Shown: positions 3,744 to 50,008, counted from the stretch's first letter. The stretch is 64,000 nucleotides of DNA from Candidatus Hydrogenedentota bacterium (GCA_019637335.1 JAHBVV010000005.1:186001-250000), one strand, 5' to 3'. Made by a program: numbers and translations. Notes: generated from the sequence alone by a model not told the origin.

Positions 3744-4508
3744 TCAACCGCTCCGATGTTCGCGGAAGGTCTTCAGCCAGGGGCCAAAACCTTCCTCACC
3801 CAGCCAGAATTCAAGCATATGCGTCACGCCGCGGCTCGTGATCGTCGCGCCGCTCAGGCCGTCAATGCTGTGCGGATCCTCCGCCGCGGGGCCGGCCGCG
3901 CCCTTGATCACGTGGATGGCCACGTCGCCGTCCTCGTCATACGCTTTGCGCCCGGGCCAGCGGTTCTTCCACTTCGGGTTGTCCACTTCGCCGCCAAGGC
4001 CCGGCGTTTCCTTGTGATCGTAGTACGTAATCCCGCGGATCGTGTTCGTGTCCGCGCCGAGCGCCAGGTAGCCGTACAGCGTGCCCCACAGGCCCTTGCC
4101 CTCGATCGGGAGCACAAGCATGTCCACCTTGCCGTCCTTCATGACCTCGTAAATCTGGACCTTCTCGGGGATGGCCTTGATCTGGGCCATATTGGGCGAC
4201 GGCGTCATCAGGGGCACGCTGTCCGGGTCAAAATTCGCGGGGTCGACGTCTTCGGCGACGGTGTCCGCCTTGAGGTCAACAATCAGCGGGGTGATGGACT
4301 GGAATTTTTCGCGGATTACCTCGGCGCTCAGCGATTCGCCCGGCTTCACCAGATTGGCCGCCTGCAAGACGCTCTTCTGCTTATCCAGGGTCTGGTTGAT
4401 GACCTGCCGCTCCTTGAGCACCACGGCGGCCGTGGCCAGCAGAACCGAGCACCCCAGGCACAGGGCGAGCGTAAACCCGTAGGTATACTTCGTACTAAAC
4501 TGCTGCAT
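3744..4508 (-). CDS. nqrC: NqrC, FMN-carrying subunit of Na+-NQR
   Basis: A 254-aa subunit with one N-terminal membrane helix (residues about 9-30) and a periplasmic FMN-binding domain. The flavinylation motif [10 protein letters not shown] lies near the C-terminus; by my count the acceptor threonine is residue 222, close to Thr225 in the Vibrio enzyme. Other family stretches are [31 protein letters not shown] and [13 protein letters not shown]. The 5' end overlaps nqrB by 14 bases. Confidence 0.97.
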
Positions 4509-5748: not shown

Positions 5749-5764
5749 AGTCGGACCGCCTCGG

Positions 5765-7144: not shown

Positions 7145-7262
7145 AAGGACGTTCCCGTTGGAGGTCTGCTGTACTTCTGGTCGATGAAGCGCGTACGAGA
7201 GGGACGCCGCACCTGGACTGGCGGCCGGCCCAGGGATGCCGACTCGATGCCAAAACGGGACG

Positions 7263-7292
7263 ATTATGCCATACCCCCGCGCGCCCATACAA
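7263..7292 (-). promoter_or_regulatory. candidate sigma-70-type promoter of the nqr operon
   Basis: Reading the minus strand, TTGTAT (complement of 7287-7292) and CATAAT (complement of 7263-7268) are separated by 18 bases. The -10 box matches 5 of 6 consensus bases, the -35 only 3 of 6. It would give an untranslated leader of roughly 110 bases before nqrA. This is pattern matching only. Confidence 0.3.
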
Positions 7293-34209: not shown

Positions 34210-34412
34210 GGCCGGTCCTCCTGATTCGCGCATATCGGTCGCGCCGGTTTGGCTGTAAGGCAGGCCCCCGCGGAGGGGCAGAATTGGCACCCGTGGCTAC
34301 CGCCATCCGGGGCGCCGTCCGCGTGTTCGTGCGCCGCAACGCCGGACCAGTGGAGCACGGCCATAACGGCGGCCACGGCGAGGCATGCGGCGAGTGTCTT
34401 GAGAATAATCAT
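34206..34412 (-). CDS. small Cys-rich membrane protein between rnfA and the FNR gene
   Basis: A 68-aa protein whose frame is fixed by its neighbours: its ATG is 2 bases after the rnfA stop, and its stop overlaps the FNR start (ATGA). A hydrophobic N-terminus (MIILKTLAACLAVAAVMAVL) would be one membrane helix. A His-rich stretch (HEHADG) and Cys42, 45, 51 and 61 (CQFC...C...C) follow. The layout resembles NqrM, a small Cys-containing helper for the iron centre of NQR, but I see no clear sequence match. An iron or FeS assembly role for Rnf is a guess. Confidence 0.75.
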   Translation of the reverse strand: MIILKTLAACLAVAAVMAVLHWSGVAAHEHADGAPDGGSHGCQFCPSAGACLTAKPARPICANQEDRP

Positions 34413-34414: not shown

Positions 34415-34996
34415 TCAGCTCCCGAGTCCGGCGAAGCCCATGAAGGCGAGCGAGAGAATGCCCGCGACCATGAGGGTGAGGCCGGCTCCCCGGGCGATAC
34501 CGGGAACGTCGTGGAGAGAAAGCTGTTCGCGCAGGCCGGACATGATCACCAGGGCGAGGGTGAACCCGCTGCCGGCTCCGAGGGCATACGCGACGCACTG
34601 GAGGAAGTTATATCCCTTGAAGGTCTGGAAGAGTGCGAGGCCGAGGATGGCGCAGTTGGTGGTGATCAGCGGCAGGAAGATGCCGAGGGCGCGGAAGAGG
34701 CCGGGACTGTATTTCTTGAGCACCATTTCGACGAGCTGCACGGAGGAGGCGATGACCGCGATGTAGCAGATGAGGCGGAGGAACTCCATGCCGAGCGCGA
34801 CGAGGAGGCTGTTGATGAAATAGGCGCAGGCCGAGCTCACGAGCATGACGAACATGACGGCGAGGCCCATTCGGCTGGCGGTCTCGAACTTGCTGGAGAC
34901 GCCCAGGAAGGGACAGATCCCCAGGAAGGCGCTGAGCACGAAGTTGTTGATGATGCAGGCATTCAGGAAGATGAAGCCCAGGGAATCATCCGACAT
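34415..34996 (-). CDS. rnfA: RnfA, membrane subunit of the Rnf complex
   Basis: A 193-aa, six-helix protein of the NqrE/RnfA family (paralogue of the gene at 2491-3108). It starts GFIFLNACIINNFVLSAFLGICPFLG, where the first Cys motif lies, with the second in ITTNCAILGLALFQ. These half-helix cysteines bind an iron centre shared with RnfE. It overlaps rnfE by 11 bases. Confidence 0.96.
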   Translation of the reverse strand: MSDDSLGFIFLNACIINNFVLSAFLGICPFLGVSSKFETASRMGLAVMFVMLVSSACAYFINSLLVALGMEFLRLICYIAVIASSVQLVEMVLKKYSPGLFRALGIFLPLITTNCAILGLALFQTFKGYNFLQCVAYALGAGSGFTLALVIMSGLREQLSLHDVPGIARGAGLTLMVAGILSLAFMGFAGLGS

Positions 34997-35624
34997 GGCC
35001 CGACTCCTTTCCAGCGTTGCGGGCGGCGGCGCGATCCTTCAGCCAGGCGAACAGCAGCAGCCATGCGCCGAGCACGAAGAAGCCGCCCGGTGGCAGAATC
35101 ATAACGGCCCATGGCTCGAATTTTGGGCCGAAGAGGTCGATGCCGAGGAGTGAACCGTTTCCGAGGAGCTCGCGCACGGCTCCGAGGCACAGCAGCGCGA
35201 AGGTGAATCCGACGCCCATGCCGAGGGCGTCCAGGATGGCCTTGATGGGGGTGTTTTTGGACGCGAAGGCCTCCTGGCGGCCCAGGATCATGCAGTTGAC
35301 GACAATGAGCTGGATAAATGCGCCGAGCGCGAGGTAGATCTCGAGGCTGACCGCCTGAATCGCGTAATCGACGACGGTGACGAAGGTGGCGATGATCACG
35401 ATGTAGGTGGCGATGCGGACCTGCTTCGGAATGGCCTTGCGGAGCAGCGAGATAAGCGTGCTGGACATCAGGAGCACGAAGGTTGTCGCCAACCCCATCG
35501 CGAGGGCGTTAACGACGGAGTTGGTGACGGCGAGCACGGGGCACATGCCCAGCAGCATGACGAAGACCGGGTTTTCGCGCCAGACGCCCTTGACGAAGAT
35601 GTCCATGGAATTGTTTTCGCTCAT
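34986..35624 (-). CDS. rnfE: RnfE, membrane subunit of the Rnf complex
   Basis: A 212-aa membrane protein of the NqrD/RnfE family. It has ENPVFVMLLGMCPVLAVTNSVVNALAMG with the first conserved Cys, and VNCMILGRQEAFASKN with the second. Together with RnfA it should hold the intramembrane iron centre. It overlaps rnfG by 4 bases (ATGA) and rnfA by 11. Its Na+-NQR equivalent is encoded at 3112-3741. Confidence 0.96.
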   Translation of the reverse strand: MSENNSMDIFVKGVWRENPVFVMLLGMCPVLAVTNSVVNALAMGLATTFVLLMSSTLISLLRKAIPKQVRIATYIVIIATFVTVVDYAIQAVSLEIYLALGAFIQLIVVNCMILGRQEAFASKNTPIKAILDALGMGVGFTFALLCLGAVRELLGNGSLLGIDLFGPKFEPWAVMILPPGGFFVLGAWLLLFAWLKDRAAARNAGKESGHVG

Positions 35625-36319
35625 GCCGGGGCCTTTCGCAGTTCATCGATGTGGGGGCGGAGGCGGGGCAGATCGCGGCGCAGGCCCAGATCGAGCATGT
35701 TGGCGATGGCGACGGAGCTGATGGTCGCGCCCGCGATTCCGTCGATTTCCCACGGGTCCTCCTTCTGGCCGCTCTTCACCGCCACGATGGTGTTGTGAAG
35801 GAGGTTGGTGGCGGGATCGGCGGCGGCGTCGAGCGCCTCGAAGTTGGCGAGGAAGGCGGGGTCCTTACCGATCTTGTCGCCCAGCCCGGGTGTTTCCTTG
35901 CTTTCGAGGACGGTAATGCCGGTGACGATCTGGCGGTCGGGGTCGTAGCCATAGAGAATGCGAATGACGTCCTGGTATCCCTGGGCGGAGGTTTCCAGCG
36001 CGACGCCCTTGAGGGCTCCCGACTCGTCGTAGACGGCGTAGAAGCGATCGCCGAACGCGGCGGCGGCGGGGTTGGGCTCGATACCGTTGCCGGTGTAGCC
36101 GTAGACCTGCTTGCTGGCTCCGCCGGGGACGACGGTGAAGATGGCGCGCTCGATCATGGCTTCGCGGTTGGCGTCGATGAACGGCAGCGTGAACTGGAAG
36201 ACGCCCACGATGAGCAGGCCGGAGAGCGCGGCCACGCCCGAAAGTACGGCCACCATCTTTCGCGGGTTGCCGGCGGGTGAGCCGGCGGCGGGGAGCGCCT
36301 GTTGAACCATCTCAGCCAT
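35621..36319 (-). CDS. rnfG: RnfG, FMN-carrying subunit of the Rnf complex
   Basis: A 232-aa subunit with one N-terminal membrane helix (MVAVLSGVAALSGLLIVGVF) and an FMN-binding domain. The flavinylation motif is DGIAGATISS, with acceptor threonine about residue 199. The Na+-NQR homologue here has SGATITS, so an Ala and a Ser replace consensus residues while the Thr remains. The ATG at 36319 follows AAAGGAAA and overlaps rnfD by 8 bases. GYDPDRQIVTGITVLESKETPGLGDKI is the conserved core. Confidence 0.95.
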   Translation of the reverse strand: MAEMVQQALPAAGSPAGNPRKMVAVLSGVAALSGLLIVGVFQFTLPFIDANREAMIERAIFTVVPGGASKQVYGYTGNGIEPNPAAAAFGDRFYAVYDESGALKGVALETSAQGYQDVIRILYGYDPDRQIVTGITVLESKETPGLGDKIGKDPAFLANFEALDAAADPATNLLHNTIVAVKSGQKEDPWEIDGIAGATISSVAIANMLDLGLRRDLPRLRPHIDELRKAPA

Positions 36320-37361
36320 GCTTTTCCTTTCGCTCGCCAAAGATGCGCGGCTGGGTCCACTGGTCGATGAGGGGGGTCGTGGCGTTGCCGAGCAGGATGG
36401 CGTACATCACGCCCTCGGGGAGGCCGCCCTCGACGCGGATCACGATGGTGATGGATCCGATGAGGGCGCCGTAGATCCAGACCCCCAGGGGCGTCACCGG
36501 AGAGCCGACCATGTCGGTGGCCATGAAGATCGCGCCGAGCATCAGCCCGCCGGAGAAGAGCATGAAGACGGGGCTCGGGTTGGCGGCGGAATCGGCCAGG
36601 TAGAAAATGCCGCTGACGAGAAAGGCGGATCCCAGCATGGCGGCGGGGATGCGCCAGTCCATGATGCCGCGCGCGATGAGGTAGGCGCCGGCGGCGAGCA
36701 GGAGTATGGAGCAGGTTTCGCCCGCGGAGCCGGCGGTCATGCCGAGGGCGAGCTGGCCGATATCGGTCTGGACGTGCTCGAATTTCTGGATGGCCAGGGG
36801 CGTTGCGCCGCTGAAGCCGTCGGCGGCGCCGGCGAGCCACTCCCCGATGGCGGGGGGCTTGCAGAAGGGCAGCGCGAGCGACGACGGCACGAATTCGGTG
36901 AAGCGCCCGGGCGCGAAGGAGGGGGTCCAGGTGGTAATGGCGACGGGGAACGAGGCCTGGAGGAATGCGCGCCCGATGAGCGCGGGATTGAAGACATTGA
37001 ACCCGATCCCGCCGAAGAGGGCCTTGCCCAGGGCGATGCTGACGAAGGCGCCCAGCGCGCCCATCCAGAGCGGGAAGCCCGGGGGCAGGGTCAGCGCGAG
37101 GAGGACGCCGGTGATGGCGGCGCTTCCATCGGAGATGGTTGCGGGGCGCTGCGCCAGGCGCGCGAAGAGGGCCTCCGTGGCCAGGCAGGTGGCCGTGCAG
37201 ACGGCGAGCAGGGCCAGTGCGCTGAGCCCGAACTGCCAGACGCTGAAGGCGCATACGGGCGCGAGCGCGTAGAGCACGTGATACATGATCCGGTCAACGC
37301 TGATGGCCTTGTGGAGGTGGGGCGAGGCCTGAAGTTCGAGCAGGTGGGCATTGGTGCTCAT
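36312..37361 (-). CDS. rnfD: RnfD, FMN-carrying membrane subunit of the Rnf complex
   Basis: A 349-aa multi-span membrane protein paralogous to NqrB. The flavinylation motif GFSGATPLA has its acceptor threonine at about residue 187, the same number as in E. coli RnfD. GKALFGGIGFNVFNPALIGR and VGSPVTPLGVWIYGALIG are typical. The start overlaps the rnfC stop (ATGA); 127 upstream in-frame codons are the shadow of rnfC. It is shorter than NqrB, as expected. Confidence 0.96.
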   Translation of the reverse strand: MSTNAHLLELQASPHLHKAISVDRIMYHVLYALAPVCAFSVWQFGLSALALLAVCTATCLATEALFARLAQRPATISDGSAAITGVLLALTLPPGFPLWMGALGAFVSIALGKALFGGIGFNVFNPALIGRAFLQASFPVAITTWTPSFAPGRFTEFVPSSLALPFCKPPAIGEWLAGAADGFSGATPLAIQKFEHVQTDIGQLALGMTAGSAGETCSILLLAAGAYLIARGIMDWRIPAAMLGSAFLVSGIFYLADSAANPSPVFMLFSGGLMLGAIFMATDMVGSPVTPLGVWIYGALIGSITIVIRVEGGLPEGVMYAILLGNATTPLIDQWTQPRIFGERKEKHG

Positions 37362-38701
37362 GTGGCCGCCTTTCGTTCGCGCACGATCTGCTTGCTCACG
37401 CGGAACTGCTGCACGAGCGGGATGTTCGCCGGGCAGACATAGGTGCAGCAGCCGCACTCGAAGCAGTCCATGAGGTGAAAATCCGCCGCCATGCGATCGT
37501 ATTCCCGAACGCGCGCCAGCTGCCCGAGAAAGCAGGGGTTGAGGTGGATCGGGCAGGCCCGCACGCAGGCCCCGCACTTGATGCAGGGGCGCGCGGCGGC
37601 AACGGCGTCCTCCTCCTCCCGTGGGAGGACGAGAATGCCGGAGACGCCCTTGGTGACCGGCGTGTCCCACGACACAATGGCCGAGCCCATCATGGGACCG
37701 CCGAAGATCACCCGGGCTTTTCCGTACTTCAGGCCGACGCAATCGAGAATGTGGCGAATCGGGGTTCCCAATGCGACGAGATAGTTGCCTGGTTTCTCGA
37801 TGCCTTCGCCTGTCACGGTTATGATGCGTTCAATGAGGCCCTGCCTCGCGGGGACAAGTTCGCCAATCTGGGCGAGCGTCGCCACGTTGAAGACCGCGGC
37901 CCCGACATCGGCGGGCAGCCCGCCGGCCGGCACTTCGCGGTTGAGGAGGGATTTGATGAGCATTTTTTCGGCGCCCTGGGGATACTTGGTCTCCACGACG
38001 CACACTTCCACGCGGTCCTCGGGCTTGATGTGCTCGGCGAGGGCGCGCGCGGCGTCGGGCTTGTTCGCTTCGATGCCGATAATGGCGCGTTCGGCCGCGA
38101 GGGCCTTGCGGATGACCGCCAGGCCATAGAGCACGGCCTCGGGCTGCTCCACCATGAGGCGGTGGTCGGTGGTGAGGTAAGGCTCGCACTCGCAGCCGTT
38201 GACGATAATCGTGTCGACGGATTTGCCTTCGGGCAGTTTGAGTTTGACGTGCGTCGGGAAGGCGGCCCCGCCCAGGCCCACCACGCCGGCGTCCTGAACG
38301 GCGGCGACGAGGTCGTCGGGCGTCATCTGGTCGATGTCGCGTGGCGCGCCATAGAGTACGGACTGGTCGGAGCTGGGGTAGACGTCTATCACGATGGACG
38401 GCACGAGCTGGCCGCGCGGGGTCGGGATGCCCTGAATAGCGCGCACGCGTCCGGTGACGGGGGCGTGCATGGGCACGGATACGAAGCCCGCGGCCTTTGC
38501 GATGGGCTCACCGCGCACGACCTCCTGGCCGGGCTGCACCAAGGCTTCGGCGGGCGCGCCGGTGTGTTGCGAGAGCGGCACGTAGACGACGCCGGGGAAG
38601 GGGAGGCGCACGATGGGCTTGTCGGCGGTTAGCTGTTTGTGTTCGGGCGGATGCAGGCCGTGCGAGAAGGTCTTACGCCAACCGTTTAGGAGCGTCAGCA
38701 T
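37358..38701 (-). CDS. rnfC: RnfC, NADH-binding subunit of the Rnf complex
   Basis: A 447-aa peripheral subunit. It contains a Gly-rich NADH/FMN region (GLGGAAFPTHVKLKLPEGK), an SLBB-like part and two [4Fe-4S] motifs near the C-terminus, CIKCGACVRACPIHLNPC and CFECGCCTYVCPANIPL. It should take electrons through the complex to NAD+, or from NADH in reverse. The start at 38701 has GGAGGTG upstream. It lies 253 bases after the PFOR stop. That gap holds a hairpin (see 38783-38821). Confidence 0.97.
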   Translation of the reverse strand: MLTLLNGWRKTFSHGLHPPEHKQLTADKPIVRLPFPGVVYVPLSQHTGAPAEALVQPGQEVVRGEPIAKAAGFVSVPMHAPVTGRVRAIQGIPTPRGQLVPSIVIDVYPSSDQSVLYGAPRDIDQMTPDDLVAAVQDAGVVGLGGAAFPTHVKLKLPEGKSVDTIIVNGCECEPYLTTDHRLMVEQPEAVLYGLAVIRKALAAERAIIGIEANKPDAARALAEHIKPEDRVEVCVVETKYPQGAEKMLIKSLLNREVPAGGLPADVGAAVFNVATLAQIGELVPARQGLIERIITVTGEGIEKPGNYLVALGTPIRHILDCVGLKYGKARVIFGGPMMGSAIVSWDTPVTKGVSGILVLPREEEDAVAAARPCIKCGACVRACPIHLNPCFLGQLARVREYDRMAADFHLMDCFECGCCTYVCPANIPLVQQFRVSKQIVRERKAAT

Positions 38702-38782
38702 GGCGCACCTCCGGCGGGGACTGGCTCCCGAGCCGCAATACGCGGGGCCGCGCACGCGCTGGTAGAGCCGTGGCGCGAGGGT

Positions 38783-38821
38783 GCCTGTACCCCAAGAGCC
38801 AACGCCTTTTGGGGTACAGCC
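38783..38821. repeat. hairpin of the GTACAGCC family between PFOR and rnfC
   Basis: GCCTGTACCCCAA (38783-38795) and TTGGGGTACAGCC (38809-38821) pair in 12 of 13 positions across a 13-base loop. TTTTGGGGTACAGCC is shared with the elements at 10725 and 58169. CCCGATGCAGTCCCC and a variant CCCGATGGAGTCCCC follow at 38871-38917, as in the 58-kb units. The 253-base gap thus contains a mobile-like insertion in the middle of an operon. Confidence 0.65.
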
Positions 38822-38954
38822 TCGGGCCGGTTCGGGACCATTGTTCCAGTGTTACGGTTGCTTGCCGGCCCGATGCAGTCCCCGCCGCGCTTGCTTTCCG
38901 GCCCGATGGAGTCCCCGCGGTGTTCATGATCCGCGGTATGTGCAACGAGAGCGC

Positions 38955-41900
38955 TCAATTGAACTTCTCCGCGCGCTTTACGAGTTTGTCGAGGCCGGGT
39001 TCGCCTGGGTTGGCCGGGGTTCCGGGGTGGATGACCTGGGCGGTGCATTTCTCGGCCGCCCGGACGATGTCCTTGAAGGGGCCGCCCTTCGGATCCTTGA
39101 TGTAGGCCTTCTTGCTCTCGTTGTAGGCGAAGATCTTGGGGTTGATGTTGATGCATTCGTCGCAGGCGGTGCACTCGGCCGTGTCAATGTAGGCCGCGGT
39201 GAAGCCGCCGGCGGCGCTCCCATTCCCGGACGCCGCTTGCGCGGCGCCCGGGTCGCCTGTGGGGGCCGCGGTGGCATGCATGACAGCCGCCGTAACGCTT
39301 CCCCCATCACCACCGGCGAGTTGCAGCAGCTGGGCTGCAAGATTGTGGGCCATTTCGGTGCGGACGGTCGCGGCGATGGCTTCGCGGTCTGGCGCGGCCG
39401 GGGCCAGCGCGATGGCCTTTAGCATGGTCCAGAAGTGCTTGCGGTCTTCCGTGGCCTTGACGATGGGTTCGGCGGGGATGACGCGCATCAGCTCGTTCTT
39501 TTTGCCGACCATCCAGATGTAGGGGAAGAGCCCTTCGCGGTCTTCCGGCGCGAGTTCGACGAACTCGGCGAGCGGGACCATGTTTTCGTTCCAGGTGTCG
39601 CGGGGGGCCTTGCGGAACTGCTTCCGGAAGCGGCCCTCGGTCACCGCGAAGTCGGCGAAGGTGAGCGGGACCTCCAGCGCGGCGGGTTCGCCTTCCTCGT
39701 TCGTATAGTGGATGGTGTAGCTGGGCCAGTCGGCTTCGAGGGCGGGGTTGCCTTCGAGGTCGAAGCACTCCTGCGGGGCGACGCCGAGATCCGGGTTGTA
39801 CCGGAAGAGCGGGTAGGCGCGGGATTCGACCGCGAGCTTGCTCTGGAGCTCGGCCACGTCGTCGCCGATGCCGTGTTCGGGCATGCAGGGGCTGTAGACG
39901 TTGAAGAGCGCGGGCCGGCGGGTGTTGAGCCCGTCGATGAAGCCTTCCAGCAGGTGTGTGACGTTGGAGATGCTGCCCTGGAGGCAGTAGGTGGTGCGGT
40001 GGGCCATGGCGATGAGGCCGATTTCCTTGCGGATTTCCTCTTTGCCTTGGAAGGCCTTGCCGTACTGGGCCATGTCGGAGATCTGGCCGGTGAAGCCGGA
40101 GGTGCAGGCCTGGCCGCCGGTGTTGGAGTAGACCTGGGTGTCGAGCACCATGACCTTGACCGGTTTCCCGGACATCATCAGGCGGGAGAGGTTCTGGAAG
40201 CCGATGTCGTACATGGCTCCGTCGCCGCCGACCGAAACCACGGGCGGGCAGAGCAGGAACTCCTCGTCGGTGAAGTTGCGCCAGTTGAAGTAGGTCAGCG
40301 TCTTCTCAAATTCGCGCCAGGGCATCTTGTCGGCCAGCGCCATTTCGGCGAGGCGGATGGCCTTGAAGCCATCGGCCATTTTGGCCATGTGCCCTTCGAA
40401 GATGCCCATGGCCATGCTGGGCGAATCCTGGAAGAGGTGGTTTGTCCAGGGGAAGGGGTAGGGGTTGAAGGGGAACGTCGAACCCCAAACCGAGGTGCAG
40501 CCGGTGGCGTTGATGATGCCCATGCTGGAACGGCCCTGGCGGGTGACGCCGGTGGTGTACTTCCAGTGAAGCTGCTTGAGCTGGGCCATGAGCCCGGTGA
40601 CCCACTGGAGCCAGCCCGGATCGAGCGGCTCCTGGGCGTGTACGGCGTCGAGGCCTTCCGAGAGACGGCCGAGGGTGAGGTCGGTGTTCTTCGCGCTGTC
40701 GATGGCGTGCTGCACCGCCTGGGGGTTGCTCAGGTCGACGGTGCTGGCGAGCTTGAGGCGGACGTGCTGTTCGAGGTCCTTCATCAGGCCTTCGATGCGG
40801 GCCAGCTGCGCCTTTACGCGCGGCTGCATCAGGGCTTCGACAGTGGCCGTGAACAGGTGGAGGACGGTCTTCTCGCCGCAGCCGAGGCAGGCGCCGTCGC
40901 CGCCGGTCATGGTGAAGTAGGCCTTCTTGTCGAGGAGGAGCGTTTCGAGCGCGCCGATCTTCTCGTTGAGGTCGTCGATGCGGATGTATTCCTGGGAGGT
41001 TGTGGGCAGGGCGCGCCAGACGTCCCAGTCATCGCGTAGCTTCTGAAGGCTGCTGTCGGTCTGGGTGACGGGCCGGAGGGCGTCGTCTTCGCAGACCTTC
41101 ACGCATTCCATGCAGCCCTTGCAGCCGTAGGGGTTGACGGTGATGGAGAGGAGGCCGCCGCTGCCCGGCTGCTGTTTTTCCTTCGTGGTGAAGTAGGGCT
41201 TGGTGATCGAGAACTGGAAATCGCCGAGTGCATCGGAGAACCAGACCAGCTCTTCCTCGAAGCGTTGGCGTTCGCCCTCGGGGACTGTCGCGACGGCGGC
41301 GACATCATCCATGACTTCGGCGAGCAGGGCGCGGACCGGGGCTGCTTCGCCTTCGGCGTTGAGGCGGCCGCGGAGCCGGTTCTCGACGACGCCGGCGGTC
41401 TTGCGGAGGTGCTTCGTGGCGCCGTGGGCCCTTTCCGCGCGCTGGATGGCCGTGTCGAACACTTCCTTGAGCGAGTGTACGAGGCCGGGAATGGCGCTGT
41501 CGGGGCAGACGGTGTAGCAGGAGCCGCAAGCGGTGCAGTTTTCCGGGATCCAGAGCGGGTGCTCGAATCGGATCTGGCTCATGTCGCGGAATACGCCGGT
41601 GCATGCGGGGACGACGCTGATGCCGATGAATGGGTCGACCAGGTTGTCGTTGCCTTTGCCGGTCATGTAGAACTCGCCGGTTTCCTCCCAGAAGCGGTGG
41701 ACATCGCTGAACTTGTCGTCGCCGCGGGGTACGTCGCGCATCATGACCGGGAGCACCGGATCGCGGCGCAGCGCGACTTCGGAAGCCTCCGATATGGTCT
41801 TTTCGGTGATTTCACGAACTTCGTCGAAGCCGCGTGTCACCACGCGAATGTTGTCTTCCACGACCCGCGCGCCCTTGGCGCCGAACTTGTACTGTAGCTG

Positions 41901-43895
41901 TTTCTTGATGGCGTCGAAGAGGGATTCCTCGTTGAGGCCCTGCTTCTCCATGACCGGCGAAGCCTTGAAGAAGGCTCCCTGGAAGGCGTTGCCCTGCATG
42001 CGGAACTGGAGTTCCGGGTCGGCCGCTTCTTCGCGAGCGATTTTGAACGCGTCAAGGTAGAACACCCGGTACTTGTGGTCCACGATGATCTTCTGATAGG
42101 TCTTGGGAATGCTCTTCCAGACGGCCTCGGGCGTGGGCAGGTCGGACTGGATGATGAAGACGCCGCCGTCTTTCAGGCCGGCCACGGCGTTGCTGTGGTT
42201 GAAGACGTTCGGGTCCGGTGAAAGGACGACGTCGACGTAGAAGTACTCGCAGTTCATCCGGATGGGTTCCGGAGCTGCGGAAAGGTAATAGGTGGTGGGC
42301 TGGCCCTTCTTTTCCGAGCCGTACTTCGGGTTGGCCTTGATATGGTACCCGAGCAGGTCGAAGAGGGTCATGGCCAGGTTCTTGCCGGTCGTGATGGCGC
42401 CCCAGCCGCCCACAGAGTGGAACCGGACGGTGATGGCGTTCTTCGGCATGAGGTTGGGATTCTCGCTGCCGCGAATGGCCAGATCCTTGATGTTGGGGTA
42501 GGCCGCCTGGATGGCCTGCTGCTGAATTTCCTGTTTGGGCGTGTAGGCCTTGTCGTGGAGGAAATCGACGGAGAGGTAGAAGAAGCGTTTCTTCCCGCCG
42601 TCGGGGAGCATGTTCTCGATGGCGGCGATGAGGCCCTCGGGCTGGAGGTCGCGGCTGCCGAGGCCGAAGGAGCCGGAGTAGAGCGGCGGGGCGTCGCTGA
42701 GGCTCTTGTAGGTTGCGGCGCCGGGGTGGGGGAGCGGGCCCTTGCCGGCGAGGCCGTTTTCCAGGGCCTTGCTCACGGCGGAGCGCACTTCCTTCATGAG
42801 GGGCAGATCGGAGGCGAGCGGCTGATCGACGCGCTCAAGGACCACGACGCCCTTGCGGCCGCGAAGCAGCTCGCTGATGCGGTCGGTCGGAAAGGGGCGG
42901 AACATGATGAGGTTTACGACGCCGACTTTGATTTTCCGGGTTTCGCGGATGTAGTCCACCACGGCCTCAGCCGAGCTGACGACGCTGCCCTGGCCGAGGA
43001 TGATGTAGTCGGCGTCCTCGCAGCGGTAGGTGTTGACCCGGGCGTAGGGGCGTCCGGTGAGGGCGGAGAACTCCGCAAAGCATTGGTCGGCGAGTTCCTG
43101 GATGTGGTCGAAGAAGAAGGGGCGCTGCGCGGCGACGCTTTGCATGTAGGCGTCCTGGTTCTGGACGGTGCCGGCCTGCATCGGGTTGTCGACGGTCCAG
43201 AGTTCGGGGATGCGGCGGCGGGTCTCGCCGTACATGAGGCGCTGCGCGGGGGTCGGCGAGGGGATGATGTCCTCGGGCTTGCCCAGGTATTCGGCGATGA
43301 GGTCGCGCTCGGGAAGCATAATCGATTCGATGAGGTGGGTGGTGAGGAAGCCGTCCTGTGCGACGATGCCCGGGGTGAGCGAGAGTTCGGCGATCTTGTG
43401 GGCGATAATGTTCAGGTCGCAGACTTCCTGCGCGCTCTTGCCGAAGACCTGGAAGAAGCCCGTGTCGTCGACCGCGTGGTAGTCGTCGTGTCCGGCGTGC
43501 ACGTTGAGGCTGGACTTGGTCATGGCGCGGCAGCCCATGTTGAGCACGTAGGTGAGGCGCTTGCCGACGGCGGCGTACAGCGACTCGTGCATGTAGGCGA
43601 TGCCCTGGCCGGAGGAGAAGTTGGTGGCGCGCAGGCCGGTCATGCTGAGGCCCGCGGTAACGGCGGCCGCGGCGTGTTCGCCTTCGGGCTCGATGAAGAT
43701 GAGCGGGCGGTTCGAAATATTGATATGCCCGTTGGCGGTTTCCTCCGCCCAGTACTCGCCCATTTGGGTGGACGGTGTAATGGGGTAGGCGCCGGCGGCG
43801 TCGCTGGACTCCCGCTCGCACATGATCACCGAACTGTTTCCGTCCATCGCCTGGCGAACGCCGGGGTACTTTGCAGAACTCGCAGAATTTTTCAT
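38955..43895 (-). CDS. pyruvate:ferredoxin (flavodoxin) oxidoreductase, extra-long form
   Basis: A 1646-aa enzyme that oxidatively decarboxylates pyruvate (or another 2-oxoacid) to acyl-CoA and reduces ferredoxin. NifJ-type PFORs are usually near 1170-1200 aa. Seen: the pyruvate-binding start AGAYPITPSTQMGEYWAEE; [4Fe-4S] motifs CTACGSCYTVCP (about residue 785) and CKGCMECVKVCEDD (about 922); TPP-site parts GDGACLGCGEKT (about 997) and VGGDGAMYDIGFQNL (about 1220); and a C-terminal ferredoxin-like CTACDECININP (about 1573). Helical insertions occur between the clusters and after GCGEKT. The ATG at 43895 (GAGGTG before it) is preferred over a GTG at 43904. It lies between rnfB and rnfC. Confidence 0.93.
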   Translation of the reverse strand: MKNSASSAKYPGVRQAMDGNSSVIMCERESSDAAGAYPITPSTQMGEYWAEETANGHINISNRPLIFIEPEGEHAAAAVTAGLSMTGLRATNFSSGQGIAYMHESLYAAVGKRLTYVLNMGCRAMTKSSLNVHAGHDDYHAVDDTGFFQVFGKSAQEVCDLNIIAHKIAELSLTPGIVAQDGFLTTHLIESIMLPERDLIAEYLGKPEDIIPSPTPAQRLMYGETRRRIPELWTVDNPMQAGTVQNQDAYMQSVAAQRPFFFDHIQELADQCFAEFSALTGRPYARVNTYRCEDADYIILGQGSVVSSAEAVVDYIRETRKIKVGVVNLIMFRPFPTDRISELLRGRKGVVVLERVDQPLASDLPLMKEVRSAVSKALENGLAGKGPLPHPGAATYKSLSDAPPLYSGSFGLGSRDLQPEGLIAAIENMLPDGGKKRFFYLSVDFLHDKAYTPKQEIQQQAIQAAYPNIKDLAIRGSENPNLMPKNAITVRFHSVGGWGAITTGKNLAMTLFDLLGYHIKANPKYGSEKKGQPTTYYLSAAPEPIRMNCEYFYVDVVLSPDPNVFNHSNAVAGLKDGGVFIIQSDLPTPEAVWKSIPKTYQKIIVDHKYRVFYLDAFKIAREEAADPELQFRMQGNAFQGAFFKASPVMEKQGLNEESLFDAIKKQLQYKFGAKGARVVEDNIRVVTRGFDEVREITEKTISEASEVALRRDPVLPVMMRDVPRGDDKFSDVHRFWEETGEFYMTGKGNDNLVDPFIGISVVPACTGVFRDMSQIRFEHPLWIPENCTACGSCYTVCPDSAIPGLVHSLKEVFDTAIQRAERAHGATKHLRKTAGVVENRLRGRLNAEGEAAPVRALLAEVMDDVAAVATVPEGERQRFEEELVWFSDALGDFQFSITKPYFTTKEKQQPGSGGLLSITVNPYGCKGCMECVKVCEDDALRPVTQTDSSLQKLRDDWDVWRALPTTSQEYIRIDDLNEKIGALETLLLDKKAYFTMTGGDGACLGCGEKTVLHLFTATVEALMQPRVKAQLARIEGLMKDLEQHVRLKLASTVDLSNPQAVQHAIDSAKNTDLTLGRLSEGLDAVHAQEPLDPGWLQWVTGLMAQLKQLHWKYTTGVTRQGRSSMGIINATGCTSVWGSTFPFNPYPFPWTNHLFQDSPSMAMGIFEGHMAKMADGFKAIRLAEMALADKMPWREFEKTLTYFNWRNFTDEEFLLCPPVVSVGGDGAMYDIGFQNLSRLMMSGKPVKVMVLDTQVYSNTGGQACTSGFTGQISDMAQYGKAFQGKEEIRKEIGLIAMAHRTTYCLQGSISNVTHLLEGFIDGLNTRRPALFNVYSPCMPEHGIGDDVAELQSKLAVESRAYPLFRYNPDLGVAPQECFDLEGNPALEADWPSYTIHYTNEEGEPAALEVPLTFADFAVTEGRFRKQFRKAPRDTWNENMVPLAEFVELAPEDREGLFPYIWMVGKKNELMRVIPAEPIVKATEDRKHFWTMLKAIALAPAAPDREAIAATVRTEMAHNLAAQLLQLAGGDGGSVTAAVMHATAAPTGDPGAAQAASGNGSAAGGFTAAYIDTAECTACDECININPKIFAYNESKKAYIKDPKGGPFKDIVRAAEKCTAQVIHPGTPANPGEPGLDKLVKRAEKFN

Positions 43896-43928
43896 GGCCG
43901 ACACCTCGATCGCGTTTCTTTCGCGCCC

Positions 43929-44810
43929 TTAGGGTTGCTTCATCGTCATCACGGGCAGGGGCGACTTGCGGACCACCGGCCTGGCCGCCGCTCCCCGGGT
44001 AACGGTTCCGTTATCCGAAATCCAGACAATCGCGCCCGTCGGGCAGCGCTGGATGATTTCACTGGTGAGATCCCGGTTGCGGCCGTAGTCCACAACGGGG
44101 AGATTGTCGCGCATGACGACGGCGCCGGCGGGCGCGTCCGCGGCGCAGCGCCCGCAGGCGTTGCAGGCCACGGCGCACTCGGCGAGAGCGTCGTCGCCCT
44201 CCGCGAGGCTCTTGCACGCCACCCAGAGATGATTGGTGACGGGCTGTATTGAGAAGAGATCCTTCGGGCAGACCTCGACGCAGTCGTTACACGCGGTGCA
44301 TTTCGCCTCATTCACCACCGGGAGGCCGTGTTCATTCATGCGAATAGCGCCGAAATCACAAACGGCCTCGCAGTCGCCCAGGCCGAGACAGCCCCAGGAA
44401 CATCCCTTGCCGCCGCCGGCGATGAGGGCCGCGCCCCGGCAGGTTTGCTCGCTTCCATATACGGCGCGGTTCCAGGCGACGTTGGCGCCGCCGGCGCAGG
44501 CCAGGCGGGCCACGCGCTTCACCGCGGCGCCCGCGTCGGTGCCCAGGTAGTTGGCGACGGCCTTGATTCCCTCGGGGGGGCTTACGGTGCAGGCGGCGGG
44601 CATCGCTTTCCCGGCGACGACGGCTTCGGCGAAGGCGCGGCAGCCGGCTTGGCCGCAGGCGCCGCAATTGGCGCCGGGGAGCATTTCCTCGACGGCGTCA
44701 ATGCGCGGGTCTTCTTCGACAAACAACTTCCGGTTGGCGGTGGCGAGCCCGATGGAGAGGAGGCCGCCAAGACCAGCCATGAAGAAGGTTGCTATCAGTA
44801 CGTCCGCCAT
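43929..44810 (-). CDS. rnfB: RnfB, ferredoxin-accepting subunit of the Rnf complex
   Basis: A 293-aa subunit with an N-terminal membrane helix (VLIATFFMAGLGGLLSIGLA) and a CxxCxxxxC iron-sulfur domain (CGACGQAGCRAFAEAV). It then has extra Cys-rich segments, including CTACNDCVEVCP and CNACGRCAADAP ([4Fe-4S] ferredoxin-like), and the tail ERCPTG-like IIQRCPTGAIVW. It is the entry point for ferredoxin electrons. It is the first gene of the minus-strand operon, with PFOR 33 bases downstream. Other Rnf genes come only after PFOR, which is unusual. Confidence 0.95.
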   Translation of the reverse strand: MADVLIATFFMAGLGGLLSIGLATANRKLFVEEDPRIDAVEEMLPGANCGACGQAGCRAFAEAVVAGKAMPAACTVSPPEGIKAVANYLGTDAGAAVKRVARLACAGGANVAWNRAVYGSEQTCRGAALIAGGGKGCSWGCLGLGDCEAVCDFGAIRMNEHGLPVVNEAKCTACNDCVEVCPKDLFSIQPVTNHLWVACKSLAEGDDALAECAVACNACGRCAADAPAGAVVMRDNLPVVDYGRNRDLTSEIIQRCPTGAIVWISDNGTVTRGAAARPVVRKSPLPVMTMKQP

Positions 44811-45430
44811 TACACCACCTCACATTTGCGCGATGCTGCCTTGCAATCGTCGCCTTTGTCCTGTGCAAGATGGGCGCCAACAATAAACGGGTCCAAATCC
44901 CCGCAAAAGCGCGAAATACAGAGCTCTCGGCCCCCAGCCAGCGCGCTATACTGTGCGAGAGACATGTGCAATTGAACACTGCTGCGCAGTGGACGAGGGG
45001 TCTCTGGCGCGGGCTGCCGCCCCGTTGCAATGGGGCCGCGATGATCGCCCATTTCCCTTTGCAGGACGTTCAAACTACAGTAATGTGCATGCAATATCGC
45101 CCGGCCCGAAGACGCACATCCGGGGGCGCGGGATCGAGCAGAGGGGATTTCCGAGGGGTTGTTGTATGAATTGCGCACTAGTGCACGCGCAGAAGTGCTC
45201 AGGTTTTCGCCCGCTGGTCGCCTGGGGCGAACTGGATTCGCACTCCCGCCGCCTCAGTGCTAGAATCGGGTGGTCATCGCGCTGCGGGAATGGTCCAGCC
45301 CGAAGCGGCACGGTTTATGCGAACAGTTCGGTTGCACACAGCAACCTGTACGCGCTTCCGGTCGGCGCCGTTGACCTGATGCGTGGATGCGCCACCGGCG
45401 AGAAGCACGATGTGTAGACGGGAGTATTCC
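44811..45430. other. 620-base divergent control region between rnfB and hoxF
   Basis: No convincing gene. Seen: a TATACT at 44947-44952 with no good -35; the palindrome GCACTAGTGC (45175-45184); and the hox promoter candidate at 45237-45266. An 83-codon frame (45166-45417) has no family likeness. Both energy operons must start here, so this is where their regulation should lie. I find no convincing promoter for rnfB on the minus strand. Confidence 0.5.
45237..45266 (+). promoter_or_regulatory. candidate promoter of the hox-hyp operon
   Basis: TTCGCA (45237-45242, 4 of 6) and TAGAAT (45261-45266, 5 of 6) are separated by 18 bases. The -10 is preceded by TGC, giving an extended -10. The leader to hoxF would be about 158 bases. 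Confidence 0.35.
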
Positions 45431-47200
45431 ATGGTAGATACGGATCTCATCAAACGGATCGTCCAGCAATATGGATCGGACCGGAGCCGCCTGATGGATA
45501 TGGCGCGCGCGGTTCATGCGGCATTGGGGCACATCTCCGAGGAGGCGTCCGCCGCGCTTGCGGAGGCCCTGGGCGTACCGTTGGTGGAAGTGCGGGACAT
45601 GGTCAGCTTCTACGCGTTCTTTTCCCGGGAAGCGCAGGCGCAGAATGTGGTCCGGCTGTGCCACGCGGCGGTGGAGCGGATGCAGGGCGCGGACGCGATT
45701 GCGGCGGCGCTGGAGTCGGCGGCGGGGACGCGGTTTGGAGCCAATGATCCCGGCGCGGACATCGCCCTGCGTTACACGAGCTGCATCGGCCTGAGCGATC
45801 AGGGCCCGAGCGCGCTGGTCAATGGGGTTCCGCTGACGAACCTGACCGCGGACGACATTCCGGGGATTGTGGCGGCCATCCGTTCCGGCGCGGACCTGAG
45901 CAAGCTCCCGCAGGCGAGCGTGGACAACGATGTGCGGGTGGCGGGCCCGGTAATCTTCGCGTCGACGGAGCGGGGCGCGGCGGTGCGGAAGGCGGTGACG
46001 ATGACGCCGGACGAGGTTATCGACGAGATAAACACGTCGCGGCTGCGCGGGCGGGGCGGCGCGGGTTTCCCGACGGCGATGAAATGGCGCTTCTGCCGGG
46101 ACGCCAAGGGGGAGGCGCACTACGTGGTGTGCAACGCGGACGAGGGTGAGCCGGGGACGTTCAAGGACCGGGTGATCCTGGCGCAGAACCCGAACCTGGT
46201 TTTCGGGGGGATGACGGTGGCGGCGTATGCGGTCGGGGCGCGGGAGGGCATCCTCTACCTGCGCGCGGAATACGAATACATGGTCCCGCACCTGGAGGGC
46301 GAACTGGCGAAGCGCCGGCACCTCGGGCTGCTCGGGACGAATATTTGCGGCCGCGAAGGCTTCGACTTTGATATCCGCATCCAGCTCGGGGCCGGGGCGT
46401 ACATCTGCGGCGAGGAATCGGCGCTGATCGAGTCGCTCGAAGGGAAGCGCGGCGCGCCGCGCGCGCGCCCGCCGTTCCCGGTGCAGTGCGGCTACCTGGG
46501 CCAGCCGACGCTGGTGAACAACGTCGAGACCTTGTGCTGCGCGGCGCGGATCCTGGTGAATGGGGGCGCGTGGTTCGCGGGCATCGGCACGAAGGACTCC
46601 ACCGGAACGAAGCTGTTGAGCGTCTCCGGCGACTGCGAGAAGCCGGGTGTGTACGAGCTGGACTACGGGATTACGGTGCGGCAGCTGCTGGAGATGGTGG
46701 GCGCGGAAAACGCGCAGGCCGTGCAGATGGGCGGCCCTTCGGGCCGTTGCCTGGCCCCGAAGGACTACGCGCGCACAATATCCTTCGACGATCTGCCCAC
46801 GGGCGGTTCGGTGATGATCTTCGGGCCGGAGCGCGACATCATCGAAGTGATGCGGCAGTTCACCGCGTTCTTCGCGGAGGAATCCTGCGGGTGGTGCACC
46901 CCGTGCCGCGCGGGGACGACGCTGCTGGAGAAGGGGCTGGAGAAGATTCTGGAGGGCCGGGCGACGGATCGCGACCTTCGCGAGCTGGAGTCCCTGGGCC
47001 TCACCGTGAAGACGATGAGCCGGTGCGGTCTGGGACAGACGGCGGCCAACCCGGTGCTAACGACCCTGCGCAACTTCCCGGACCTGTACGCGGACCGCGT
47101 GCGGCCCGATAACGGCGGCGTGGGGATAGACCTCGAGAAGGCGGAGGCCGAATTCCACGCGATCGCGGGGCACGCGGCGGCCACAGGAGAGACGAACTGA
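45431..47200 (+). CDS. hoxF: HoxF, NAD- and FMN-binding subunit of NAD-reducing hydrogenase
   Basis: A 589-aa diaphorase subunit of the soluble NAD-coupled [NiFe]-hydrogenase (group 3d). Residues 1-150 are a NuoE-like domain with only single Cys in each ligand pair (VVRLCHAAV and SCIGLSDQGP). The same pattern is, as I recall, in Ralstonia HoxF. Then NuoF-like: RGRGGAGFPTAMKW, CNADEGEPGTFKDR, GAGAYICGEESALIESLEG and the [4Fe-4S] site ESCGWCTPCRAGTT with a later Cys in MSRCGLGQ. The ATG at 45431 follows GGGAG. Confidence 0.96.
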   Translation: MVDTDLIKRIVQQYGSDRSRLMDMARAVHAALGHISEEASAALAEALGVPLVEVRDMVSFYAFFSREAQAQNVVRLCHAAVERMQGADAIAAALESAAGTRFGANDPGADIALRYTSCIGLSDQGPSALVNGVPLTNLTADDIPGIVAAIRSGADLSKLPQASVDNDVRVAGPVIFASTERGAAVRKAVTMTPDEVIDEINTSRLRGRGGAGFPTAMKWRFCRDAKGEAHYVVCNADEGEPGTFKDRVILAQNPNLVFGGMTVAAYAVGAREGILYLRAEYEYMVPHLEGELAKRRHLGLLGTNICGREGFDFDIRIQLGAGAYICGEESALIESLEGKRGAPRARPPFPVQCGYLGQPTLVNNVETLCCAARILVNGGAWFAGIGTKDSTGTKLLSVSGDCEKPGVYELDYGITVRQLLEMVGAENAQAVQMGGPSGRCLAPKDYARTISFDDLPTGGSVMIFGPERDIIEVMRQFTAFFAEESCGWCTPCRAGTTLLEKGLEKILEGRATDRDLRELESLGLTVKTMSRCGLGQTAANPVLTTLRNFPDLYADRVRPDNGGVGIDLEKAEAEFHAIAGHAAATGETN

Positions 47201-47919
47201 TGAGCGCGCAACACGATACTTCCGCCGAGACCTTTACCTTCACCTTGGACGGTGCAACGGTAACCGCGAAACCGGGCCAGACGATACTCGAGGCCGCCCA
47301 GGACGCGGGCATTTACATCCCGAAGCTGTGTCAGAAGGATGGCCTGAGCCCGGGCGGTCACTGCCGTATTTGCACGGTGATGGTGAACGGACGCCCGGCC
47401 AGCGCGTGCACGCTGCCGGCGACGCCGGATGTGGTGGTGGAGAACAATACGGACGATCTGAACACGATGCGGCGGCACGTGGTCGAGATGCTGTTCGTCG
47501 AAGGCAACCACGTGTGCCCCTCCTGCGAAGCGAGCGGCAACTGCGAGCTTCAGGCCCTGGGCTACCGCCTGGGCATGACGGCGCCACAGTATCCGTACCT
47601 CAGCCCGGTGCGCGAGTTGGACGCCACACACGACGACATCCTGATCGACCGCAACCGCTGCGTGCTCTGCGGGCGTTGCGCCCGGGCGTCGCGGGAGCTG
47701 GACGGCAAGTCGGTCTTCGGGTTCGAGGGCCGCGGCATCAACAAGCGCATCGCGGTGAACGCGAGCAACGGCCTGGCCGGCACGGACATCGAGTTGACGG
47801 ACGAGGCGGTGGCGGCGTGCCCCGTCGGCTGCATCCTGGTCAAAGGCCGGAGCCACGTCGTCCCCATCGGGCAGCGCATGTACGATCATACCCCCATCGG
47901 CGCGGATGTTGAGTCCTGA
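47200..47919 (+). CDS. hoxU: HoxU, diaphorase iron-sulfur subunit
   Basis: A 239-aa subunit homologous to the N-terminus of NuoG. It carries a [2Fe-2S] ferredoxin site (CQKDGLSPGGHCRICTVMVNG with a later Cys in ASACTLPA), a His/Cys [4Fe-4S] segment (HVCPSCEASGNCELQAL) and CVLCGRCARASREL. It passes electrons between the hydrogenase and HoxF. Its ATG overlaps the hoxF stop by one base. Confidence 0.96.
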   Translation: MSAQHDTSAETFTFTLDGATVTAKPGQTILEAAQDAGIYIPKLCQKDGLSPGGHCRICTVMVNGRPASACTLPATPDVVVENNTDDLNTMRRHVVEMLFVEGNHVCPSCEASGNCELQALGYRLGMTAPQYPYLSPVRELDATHDDILIDRNRCVLCGRCARASRELDGKSVFGFEGRGINKRIAVNASNGLAGTDIELTDEAVAACPVGCILVKGRSHVVPIGQRMYDHTPIGADVES

Positions 47920-47957
47920 ACCCGGCGCGGGCCGAACTGCATAGGAGTATAAGAACC

Positions 47958-48497
47958 ATGGCGAAACCGCGGATTGCAACGGGCCACTTCACCGGTTGTT
48001 TCGGGTGCCATATGTCGCTGCTGGACATCGACGAGCGGATCCTGGATCTGGTGGACATCGTGGATTTCGACAAGTCGCCAATCAACGACAAGAAGCGATT
48101 CGACCAGCCGGTGGATATTGGCATTGTCGAGGGCGGCATCAGCAACGACGAGAACCTGGAATTCCTGCTGGAGTTCCGGAAAAATTGCAAGATACTTATT
48201 GCGATGGGCGCGTGCGCGATCACGGGCGGGGTTCCGTCGATGCGCAACACTGTTCCCCTTCGCGAGTGCCTGGAGGAGGCCTATCTGAACGGGCCGACGG
48301 TGGAAGGCGGGATCATTCCGAACGACCCGGATATTCCCGTGTTGCTCGACAAGGTGTACCCGTGCCACGAAGTGGTGAAGATTGATTACTTTCTCCCGGG
48401 GTGCCCGCCGTCGGCGGACACGCTGTGGGCGGCGCTGACGGCGCTGCTCTCGGGCCAGGAGCCGGAGCTGCCGTACGAGCTGGTTAAATACGACTGA
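47958..48497 (+). CDS. hoxY: HoxY, hydrogenase small subunit
   Basis: A 179-aa small subunit carrying the proximal [4Fe-4S] cluster. By my count the ligands are Cys14 and Cys17 (GCFGCHMS), Cys86 (GACAITGG) and Cys149 (PGCPPS). It is short and lacks a Tat signal, so the enzyme is cytoplasmic, as in group 3. AGGAG precedes the ATG; the gap to hoxU is 38 bases. Confidence 0.97.
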   Translation: MAKPRIATGHFTGCFGCHMSLLDIDERILDLVDIVDFDKSPINDKKRFDQPVDIGIVEGGISNDENLEFLLEFRKNCKILIAMGACAITGGVPSMRNTVPLRECLEEAYLNGPTVEGGIIPNDPDIPVLLDKVYPCHEVVKIDYFLPGCPPSADTLWAALTALLSGQEPELPYELVKYD

Positions 48498-48559
48498 ACG
48501 GAAACAACAGGGCCCAGCATGAATTCATACGCATCACGGATGCGCGGAGGTACCAGGCA

Positions 48560-50008
48560 ATGACACAGGCTGTAACGACCGATCGCCGGAAGGTGGTGAT
48601 CAATCCGGTGACCCGCGTGGAGGGGCACGGGAAAGTGACCTTGCACCTCGACGACGCCGGCCACATTGAGGAAGCGCGGTTCCACATCATCGAGTTCCGC
48701 GGGTTCGAGCGCTTCATCCAGGGGCGGCCCTACTGGGAGGCTCCCACCGTGGTCCAGCGCCTCTGCGGCATCTGCCCGGTGAGCCATCACCTCTGCGCCT
48801 CCAAGGCGATGGACGTGGTGGCGGGGGTGGACGAGGTTTCGCCGACGGCCGACAAGATGCGCCGCCTGATGCACTATGGCCAGACCTTCCAGTCGCACGT
48901 GCTGCACTTCTACCACCTGGCCTCGCCGGACCTGCTGTTCGGCTTTGACGCCCCGGTGGAACAGCGCAACGTGATCGGCGTGATCCGCGCGCACCCCGAT
49001 GTCGCTCGGAAGGCCGTCCTGATGCGCAAGTACGGGCAGGAGGTGATCAAGGCGACGGCGGGAAAGAAGATCCACGGCACGGGATCGGTGCCCGGCGGCA
49101 TCAATAAGAATCTCAGCATTGCGGAGCGGGACGTGTTGCTGCGCGGCATCGACGAGATGATCGCCTGGGCCGTTGAAGGGCTGGAGATTTGCAAGTCGGT
49201 CGTGAAGTCCGACATGGACCGCCTGCTCGCCTTCGGCAGCTTCGATTCCAACTTCGTCAGTATCGTGACCGAGGACGGCGGGCTGGACCTGTACGACGGC
49301 AATCTCCGCGCGCGGGACCAGGACGGCAAGATCATCTTCGACCAGGTCCCCCCGGCGGAGTACGTGAATTACATTCGCGAGGAGGTCCGCCCCTGGAGCT
49401 ACATGAAGTTCCCGTACATCATTTCGATGGGCAAGGAACGCGGCTGGTACCGCGTGGGCCCGCTCGCGCGTATCAACAACTGCGATTACATCGACACCCC
49501 GATCGCGGAAGCGGAGCGCCAGGCCTTCGTCGCGCTGGGCGGCGGGAAGCCGATCCAGTCGACGATGGCGTACCACTGGGCGCGCATGATCGAGACCGTG
49601 CACTCGGCGGAGAAGATCAAGGAGCTGTTGAACGACCCGGACCTTCAGGGCGACGAATTGATCCGGAAGGGCGAACGCCGGGCCTCGGGCGCGGCGTGGA
49701 TCGAGGCGCCGCGCGGTACGCTGATCCACCACTACGAAGTGGACGACAAGGACCTGATCACGATGGCGAATCTGATCGTGTCCACAACGCACAACAACGA
49801 GGCGATGAACCGGGCGGTGCAGACGGTGGCGGCGCAGTACCTGGACGGCCACGAGATCACCGAGGGCCTGCTCAACCACATTGAGGTGGGCATACGGGCC
49901 TACGATCCGTGCCTGAGCTGCGCGACACACGCGCTGGGCCAGATGCGGCTGCAGGTGCAGCTCGTGGACCAGTCCGAGAACGTGGTTTCGGAGCTGGTGC
50001 GCGGATGA
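48560..50008 (+). CDS. hoxH: HoxH, [NiFe]-hydrogenase large subunit
   Basis: A 482-aa catalytic subunit. The two Ni-Fe ligand pairs are Cys69/Cys72 in RLCGICPVSHHL and Cys451/Cys454 in DPCLSCATH. The 25 residues after His457 form the C-terminal tail that a maturation protease would remove. HoxW, the next gene, is that protease. The motifs match group 3d bidirectional NAD-linked hydrogenases. GGAGGT precedes the ATG. Confidence 0.98.
   Translation: MTQAVTTDRRKVVINPVTRVEGHGKVTLHLDDAGHIEEARFHIIEFRGFERFIQGRPYWEAPTVVQRLCGICPVSHHLCASKAMDVVAGVDEVSPTADKMRRLMHYGQTFQSHVLHFYHLASPDLLFGFDAPVEQRNVIGVIRAHPDVARKAVLMRKYGQEVIKATAGKKIHGTGSVPGGINKNLSIAERDVLLRGIDEMIAWAVEGLEICKSVVKSDMDRLLAFGSFDSNFVSIVTEDGGLDLYDGNLRARDQDGKIIFDQVPPAEYVNYIREEVRPWSYMKFPYIISMGKERGWYRVGPLARINNCDYIDTPIAEAERQAFVALGGGKPIQSTMAYHWARMIETVHSAEKIKELLNDPDLQGDELIRKGERRASGAAWIEAPRGTLIHHYEVDDKDLITMANLIVSTTHNNEAMNRAVQTVAAQYLDGHEITEGLLNHIEVGIRAYDPCLSCATHALGQMRLQVQLVDQSENVVSELVRG

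Follow-up and report, generated by a model that had tools for sequence, protein, structure and literature searches.

The window, that is, the whole 64,000-nucleotide stretch of Candidatus Hydrogenedentota bacterium DNA analysed here (GCA_019637335.1 JAHBVV010000005.1:186001-250000), belongs to a genome of 7.16 Mb in 55 contigs. Its minus strand carries, in this order, rnfB, PFOR, rnfC, rnfD, rnfG, rnfE, rnfA and a gene for a PetH-like ferredoxin reductase, each name being backed by family scans. The initial annotation had given the order from rnfB to rnfA, the strand and the coordinates correctly, as the scans and open reading frames confirm; the reductase gene was missing from its listing. 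The features, numbered from the first letter of the window, are:

43929-44810, minus strand: rnfB (TIGR01944 69.7 against a cut-off of 68.7, marginal; PF04060; Fer4_7)
38955-43895, minus strand: PFOR of the long type with a ferredoxin at its C-terminus; 1,646 aa counted from ATG 43895 (POR_N, PFOR_II, POR, Fer4, TPP_enzyme_C, Fer4_13; phmmer matches to PFOR structures 6cin and 1b0p)
39210-39311, minus strand: low-complexity linker joining ferredoxin to PFOR body, predicted disordered (pLDDT <50; Ala/Gly/Pro/Ser-rich)
39027-39188, minus strand: C-terminal single-cluster ferredoxin domain of PFOR (CxxCxxC...C; PF13370; phmmer match to 1dax; pLDDT 84-89; Foldseek match to 1fxd)
38702-38954, minus strand: PFOR-rnfC spacer, 253 bp
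38715-38884, no strand assigned: dispersed repeat of about 170 bp inside the spacer (inverted repeats at its ends, CGGGGACTG/CAGTCCCCG, and a hairpin inside)
37358-38701, minus strand: rnfC (ATG 38701, GGAGG Shine-Dalgarno; TIGR01945 512 against a cut-off of 246)
36312-37361, minus strand: rnfD (TIGR01946 315 against a cut-off of 207)
35621-36340, minus strand: rnfG, start uncertain (FMN_bind PF04205 56.4 against 22; TIGR01947 82, below its cut-off of 102)
34986-35624, minus strand: rnfE (TIGR01948 233 against a cut-off of 213)
34415-34996, minus strand: rnfA (TIGR01943 239 against a cut-off of 229)
33349-34290, minus strand: PetH/BoxA-like ferredoxin:NAD(P) reductase, whose gene closes the cluster, start uncertain (NF045929, sub-threshold at 205 bits; TIGR03224, 174 bits)

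RnfA, RnfC, RnfD and RnfE exceed their curated TIGR cut-offs, RnfB and a probable RnfG complete the set of six Rnf subunits, and RnfC searches reveal only one rnf cluster in this genome. For PFOR the start at ATG 43895, preceded by a GAGGTG Shine-Dalgarno, is preferred over GTG 43904 (ORF 43904-38955).

The gap before rnfC remarked on in the initial annotation is indeed long, and its cause is the dispersed repeat, which lies in the spacer and is missing from the two close relatives compared (L003 and L128), where PFOR and rnfC lie about 60 and 40 bp apart. The repeat has short terminal inverted repeats and an internal hairpin (fold z = -2.8), with 67 matches in its own genome, often in tandem. 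Prediction gives the spacer no terminator-like site on its coding (minus) strand; this and the dispersed nature of its sequence led us to reject a promoter or terminator role for it. The long spacer is a local repeat insertion, outside the PFOR-Rnf module. The palindromic family to which the repeat belongs (about 74, 100 and 170 bp, CGGGGACTG...CAGTCCCCG) is REP- or MITE-like, dispersed and tandem, and abundant in this genome; it is seen also at 58.2-58.4 kb of the window and in L210-L213.

The plain name PFOR given to the large gene holds as far as domain order is concerned: POR_N, PFOR_II, POR, the Fer4 pair and the TPP-binding domain follow one another as expected, and alignment with E. coli YdbK and 101 relatives finds all 12 cysteines of the three internal clusters as well as the TPP-Mg and substrate motifs. 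The protein is nevertheless not canonical, scoring 412.5 bits against the TIGR02176 equivalog cut-off of 911 and carrying an added ferredoxin; judged by its sequence it is a PFOR homologue outside the curated equivalog, a member of a divergent long subfamily. Inserts and a C-terminal extension make it some 470 residues longer than YdbK (1,174 aa). Its substrate is presumably pyruvate, the substrate motifs being conserved.

The C-terminal extension ends in a one-cluster ferredoxin (Fer4_13) for which phmmer gives D. africanus ferredoxin I (1dax) as the nearest solved sequence. When the C-terminal 285 residues are modelled with AlphaFold2, this tail folds at pLDDT 84-89, and Foldseek matches it to D. 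gigas ferredoxin II (1fxd) with probability 1.00 and a weak E-value, the ferredoxin being a small part of the 285-residue query. The Ala/Gly/Pro/Ser-rich linker that precedes it varies from 36 to 82 residues across the family. With a fused ferredoxin fold on a linker predicted to be disordered, PFOR would therefore bear its own tethered electron acceptor. The 16 cluster cysteines (787, 790, 793, 797, 925, 928, 931, 935, 1003, 1006, 1133, 1337, 1575, 1578, 1581 and 1617, numbered from the ATG; numbers in the listed GTG ORF are 3 higher) are conserved at 0.98-1.00 in the 101 relatives. The same genome encodes a second long PFOR-like 2-oxoacid oxidoreductase (L124:8799-13085, C1; about 1,550 aa, 37% identity), which stands alone, away from rnf, with its active-site motifs kept and without a ferredoxin tail; the tail-less clade to which it belongs recurs in Acidobacteriota and Verrucomicrobiota.

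Other energy genes lie nearby. A complete nqrABCDEF set (Na+-NQR; window 1366-7288, minus strand) lies some 30 kb away from PFOR and rnf; NADH made by Rnf could thus feed a second Na+ pump. A divergent bidirectional [NiFe] hydrogenase (window 45383-50008, plus strand) comprises a fused hoxE-hoxF (605 aa), hoxU, hoxY and hoxH; the divergent hox-rnf arrangement is seen also in L004/L130, and hox is not beside rnf in L128 or L129.

Related genomes were searched for the same arrangement, the conservation set being the best 80 PFORs by similarity in one-per-species genomes. Nearly all of these 80 adjoin rnf genes, arranged rnfB-PFOR-rnfC-D-G-E-A and in most cases accompanied by the reductase; the Bacteroidota variant is PFOR-rnfCDGEA-FNR-rnfB. 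Carriers occur in at least 11 phyla and include, under names that call for caution where they are those of metagenome-assembled genomes, Hydrogenedentota, Acidobacteriota, Verrucomicrobiota, Kiritimatiellota, Calditrichota, Pseudomonadota, SAR324, Myxococcota, Bacteroidota, Spirochaetota, Planctomycetota and Binatia. The order is kept at 58-86% protein identity across phyla, and its presence in dozens of genomes, much more than chance would give, disposes of the idea that it is an assembly oddity or unique to this one. Among Hydrogenedentota, 31 of the 68 genomes examined contain a PFOR-like match, and wherever the contig allows rnfC begins about 40-260 bp downstream of the tailed PFOR, G049 being the sole exception. 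Family f3, like G044 and G045 from the same order, lacks PFOR here and has rnfC immediately after rnfB; PFOR therefore does occupy the rnfB/rnfC junction, as the initial annotation had it, and this placement is a conserved one, not a peculiarity. The coordinated synthesis it proposed is well supported by the single strand, the short gaps, the order kept in at least 11 phyla and a spacer free of minus-strand terminator-like sites. Samples of Acidobacteriota, Verrucomicrobiota, Gammaproteobacteria and Bacteroidota give a similar picture.

Linkage to rnf goes with the tail. In the pooled data 107 of 114 ferredoxin-tailed PFORs are adjacent to rnfB or rnfC, as against 4 of 18 tail-less long PFORs with enough flank (Fisher p = 2e-13, a value that ignores shared ancestry, with the 80-locus set picked by similarity); all four of the latter are of a split korAB type described below, and otherwise the count is 0/14. 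Five tailed PFORs have no rnf neighbour in the flank examined (L042, L146, L153, L154 and L155), and rnfC is found elsewhere in four of these five genomes; the lone tailed PFORs of L153-L155 are from Acidobacteriota, at about 53% identity, with rnfC elsewhere in the genome. Of the 63 linked loci whose flank is long enough, 45 have a PetH-like reductase. Phyla are intermingled in the PFOR tree, which is what transfer of the cluster as a unit would produce, and the tail-less long PFORs stand apart in a clade of their own (it is a quick tree, in which the korAB type is long-branched). Distances of PFOR and RnfC correlate at r = 0.90, those of RnfC and RnfD at r = 0.75. At L142:1-6415 a PFOR ferredoxin tail is followed by a shortened RnfC-like protein without C-terminal clusters and by genes for a multi-subunit [NiFe] hydrogenase; this may be what is left of a PFOR-rnf operon after rewiring.

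RnfB of the window comprises an N-terminal membrane anchor, an FeS domain, ferredoxin-type clusters and a basic C-terminal tail, RGAAARPVVRKSPLP. Such a tail, approximately KGxxAKKIxRK(S/E)xLP, is found on PFOR-linked RnfBs, and a profile (HMM) of it trained without Hydrogenedentota separates perfectly 23 PFOR-linked RnfBs of that phylum (33-58 bits) from 20 RnfBs without linked PFOR (at most 18.8); two high scorers nominally unlinked (L192 and L207) come from genomes that do carry a tailed PFOR. On the RnfB tree a single switch, or at most two, between linkage to PFOR and lack of it would suffice, and the linked Rnfs come near to having arisen just once. We accordingly rejected the basic tail as independent proof of docking: its co-occurrence with PFOR is suggestive.

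Two groups of PFOR homologues found at rnf lack the active site. In genus g5 of the Hydrogenedentota (G001 and G002) the rnfB/rnfC junction holds the gene for an intact PFOR homologue, about 1,527 aa long. The YPITPST and CRAMTKSSLNVHAG regions are gone from it, as are the GGDGxxYDIGxQN and SNTGGQ thiamine-diphosphate motifs, yet its four [4Fe-4S] clusters retain every one of their 16 cysteines; RnfB in these genomes has its basic tail. The two homologues are 65.5% identical, and their dN of about 0.25 against a dS of about 1.7 or higher, often saturated, indicates purifying selection after the motifs were lost. Four gammaproteobacteria (L186-L189) have korA and korB, then a PFOR-beta-like gene (about 810 aa), rnfB, a PFOR-like gene (about 1,540 aa) and rnfCDGEA. 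Here the shorter protein has the ferredoxin tail and no thiamine motif, the longer has kept the eight Fer4-pair cysteines but neither the cysteines of the proximal cluster nor the motifs for thiamine and substrate, and the basic tail of RnfB is missing. In L188 the tail is in a different reading frame from the body, and sucCD, also inside the cluster, points to 2-oxoglutarate. G919 and G736 hold both this split, dead type and a live PFOR-rnf cluster. The dead versions come from few genomes, at least two of which, G001 and G002, are draft assemblies; an electron conduit derived from PFOR, which would have stayed with Rnf once catalysis was lost or moved to other proteins, suits both cases. From the linkage of tail to rnf and the retention of the wire in the dead versions it follows that operon position tracks the electron wire and not pyruvate chemistry.

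We consider it somewhat probable that the PFOR-Rnf module acts as an ion-pumping analogue of pyruvate dehydrogenase with delivery by tethered ferredoxin. PFOR would oxidise pyruvate and CoA to acetyl-CoA and CO2, and the electrons would pass its three internal [4Fe-4S] clusters to the C-terminal ferredoxin, which would swing to hand them to the RnfB/RnfC side of Rnf; Rnf would then reduce NAD+ and export Na+ or H+. The PetH-like reductase may let the same electrons reach NADP, and NADH from Rnf could go on to feed NQR or Hox. The electron path and its direction, the ion, co-transcription and physical docking are what we infer from genes and their arrangement. Conservation of an operon can by itself reflect co-regulation; because operon position follows the electron wire, direct hand-over from PFOR to Rnf is favoured, short of proof of contact, and the two lineages that have kept the wire and lost the catalytic site suggest feeding straight into the pump. 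Together with the tethered ferredoxin they lend indirect support to the direct contact that the initial annotation had thought possible. More tentatively, and with some doubt on our part, the PFOR-derived polypeptide may be a true extra subunit of an extended Rnf, a docked conduit with a swinging ferredoxin that in most lineages would also be the pyruvate enzyme and elsewhere a catalysis-free adaptor for KorAB or another donor.

Much of the conservation would also be seen if the operon were metabolic only, its genes merely co-expressed, with free soluble ferredoxin carrying the electrons and the C-terminal ferredoxin simply protecting or stabilising the enzyme, as the C-terminal domain of D. 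africanus PFOR is thought to do; and some tailed PFORs do occur away from rnf. This explanation we hold to be unlikely, for it gives no account of the survival at rnf of tail and cluster cysteines after loss of the active site, nor of why, the split type apart, no tail-less long PFORs were found at rnf. This specificity of rnf linkage for the tail counts as well against the proposal that PFOR and Rnf have no functional coupling and that a horizontally moved operon has kept its order by hitch-hiking. The intermixing of phyla in the PFOR tree is consistent with cluster transfer, but retention of the order at such protein divergence, together with the empty-site arrangement in sister families, makes hitch-hiking very improbable. 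The active-site-less PFORs on which part of the argument turns could themselves be uninformative, as decaying genes or assembly errors, a suspicion that the draft state of G001 and G002 and the out-of-frame tail of L188 encourage; the first pair, however, has the same deletions in both genomes, open frames of about 1,530 codons without interruption, a dS at saturation and 16/16 cysteines, and these facts, with the recurrence of the split version in four genomes, make it quite improbable.

Reversal of the direction is a rival of another kind: Rnf would use the ion gradient and NADH to reduce the PFOR ferredoxin, and PFOR would serve as pyruvate synthase (acetyl-CoA + CO2 to pyruvate). Rnf and PFOR are both reversible, and many carriers are sulfur oxidisers or symbionts, for which carboxylation by PFOR has been proposed (PMC6593406). 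In some Bacteroidota carriers, moreover, a dihydrolipoamide acetyltransferase scores above the PDH cut-off, which would free their pyruvate oxidation from any need for PFOR, although the model in question matches all 2-oxoacid dehydrogenase E2s and this reading as to PDH replacement is ambiguous. The Hox hydrogenase and NQR near the window cluster, on the other hand, suit disposal of NADH, and we judge the reverse direction rather unlikely.

Rnf is usually pictured as drawing its electrons from a diffusing ferredoxin pool. Should tethered delivery prove true, this Rnf would be dedicated to one substrate; it would stand in for pyruvate dehydrogenase while pumping ions, and would shield low-potential electrons from oxygen and competing enzymes. 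That would matter to carriers which are facultative or even aerobic, among them Algoriphagus, Marivirga and Ectothiorhodospira; direct wiring can be tested with the naturally occurring versions that lack the active site.

Canonical PFOR (TIGR02176; D. africanus 1b0p, M. thermoacetica 6cin, E. coli YdbK) shares with the window protein the domain order, the TPP and substrate motifs and the three internal [4Fe-4S] clusters, and differs in lacking its extra inserts and tethered C-terminal ferredoxin; the window protein scores 412 bits where the cut-off is 911 and exceeds YdbK by roughly 470 residues. The subunits of Rnf (RnfABCDGE) are those of the usual complex, RnfG with less certainty, here with the PFOR gene between rnfB and rnfC and with the extra basic C-terminal tail that PFOR-linked RnfBs share. 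Vent symbionts have korABCD-Hdr-Flx rTCA clusters with Rnf nearby (PMC6315080, PMC11636981), where 2-oxoacid:ferredoxin oxidoreductase genes are likewise mixed with electron-transfer complexes; the proposed partner there is Hdr-Flx and the direction reductive, and the portions of these two papers available to us describe no split PFOR-like wire between korAB and rnf. Closest is the Solemya velum symbiont, whose 2014 genome paper describes rnfB2-PFOR-rnfC2 and proposes from gene position that pyruvate is the Rnf donor (PMC4287430), the same order and the same idea, likened here by description and not by sequence. That proposal concerns one genome and takes one sentence; the ferredoxin fusion, multi-phylum spread and dead or split versions were not found in the paper. 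Nor did we find in the open-access literature searched any report of a PFOR-ferredoxin fusion tied to Rnf, of its breadth or of its dead versions; an earlier mention of the gene order outside that literature is possible. The gene order and the pyruvate-Rnf idea are thus already published, and what appears new against the open-access literature searched is the ferredoxin fusion, the breadth of its distribution and the dead versions.
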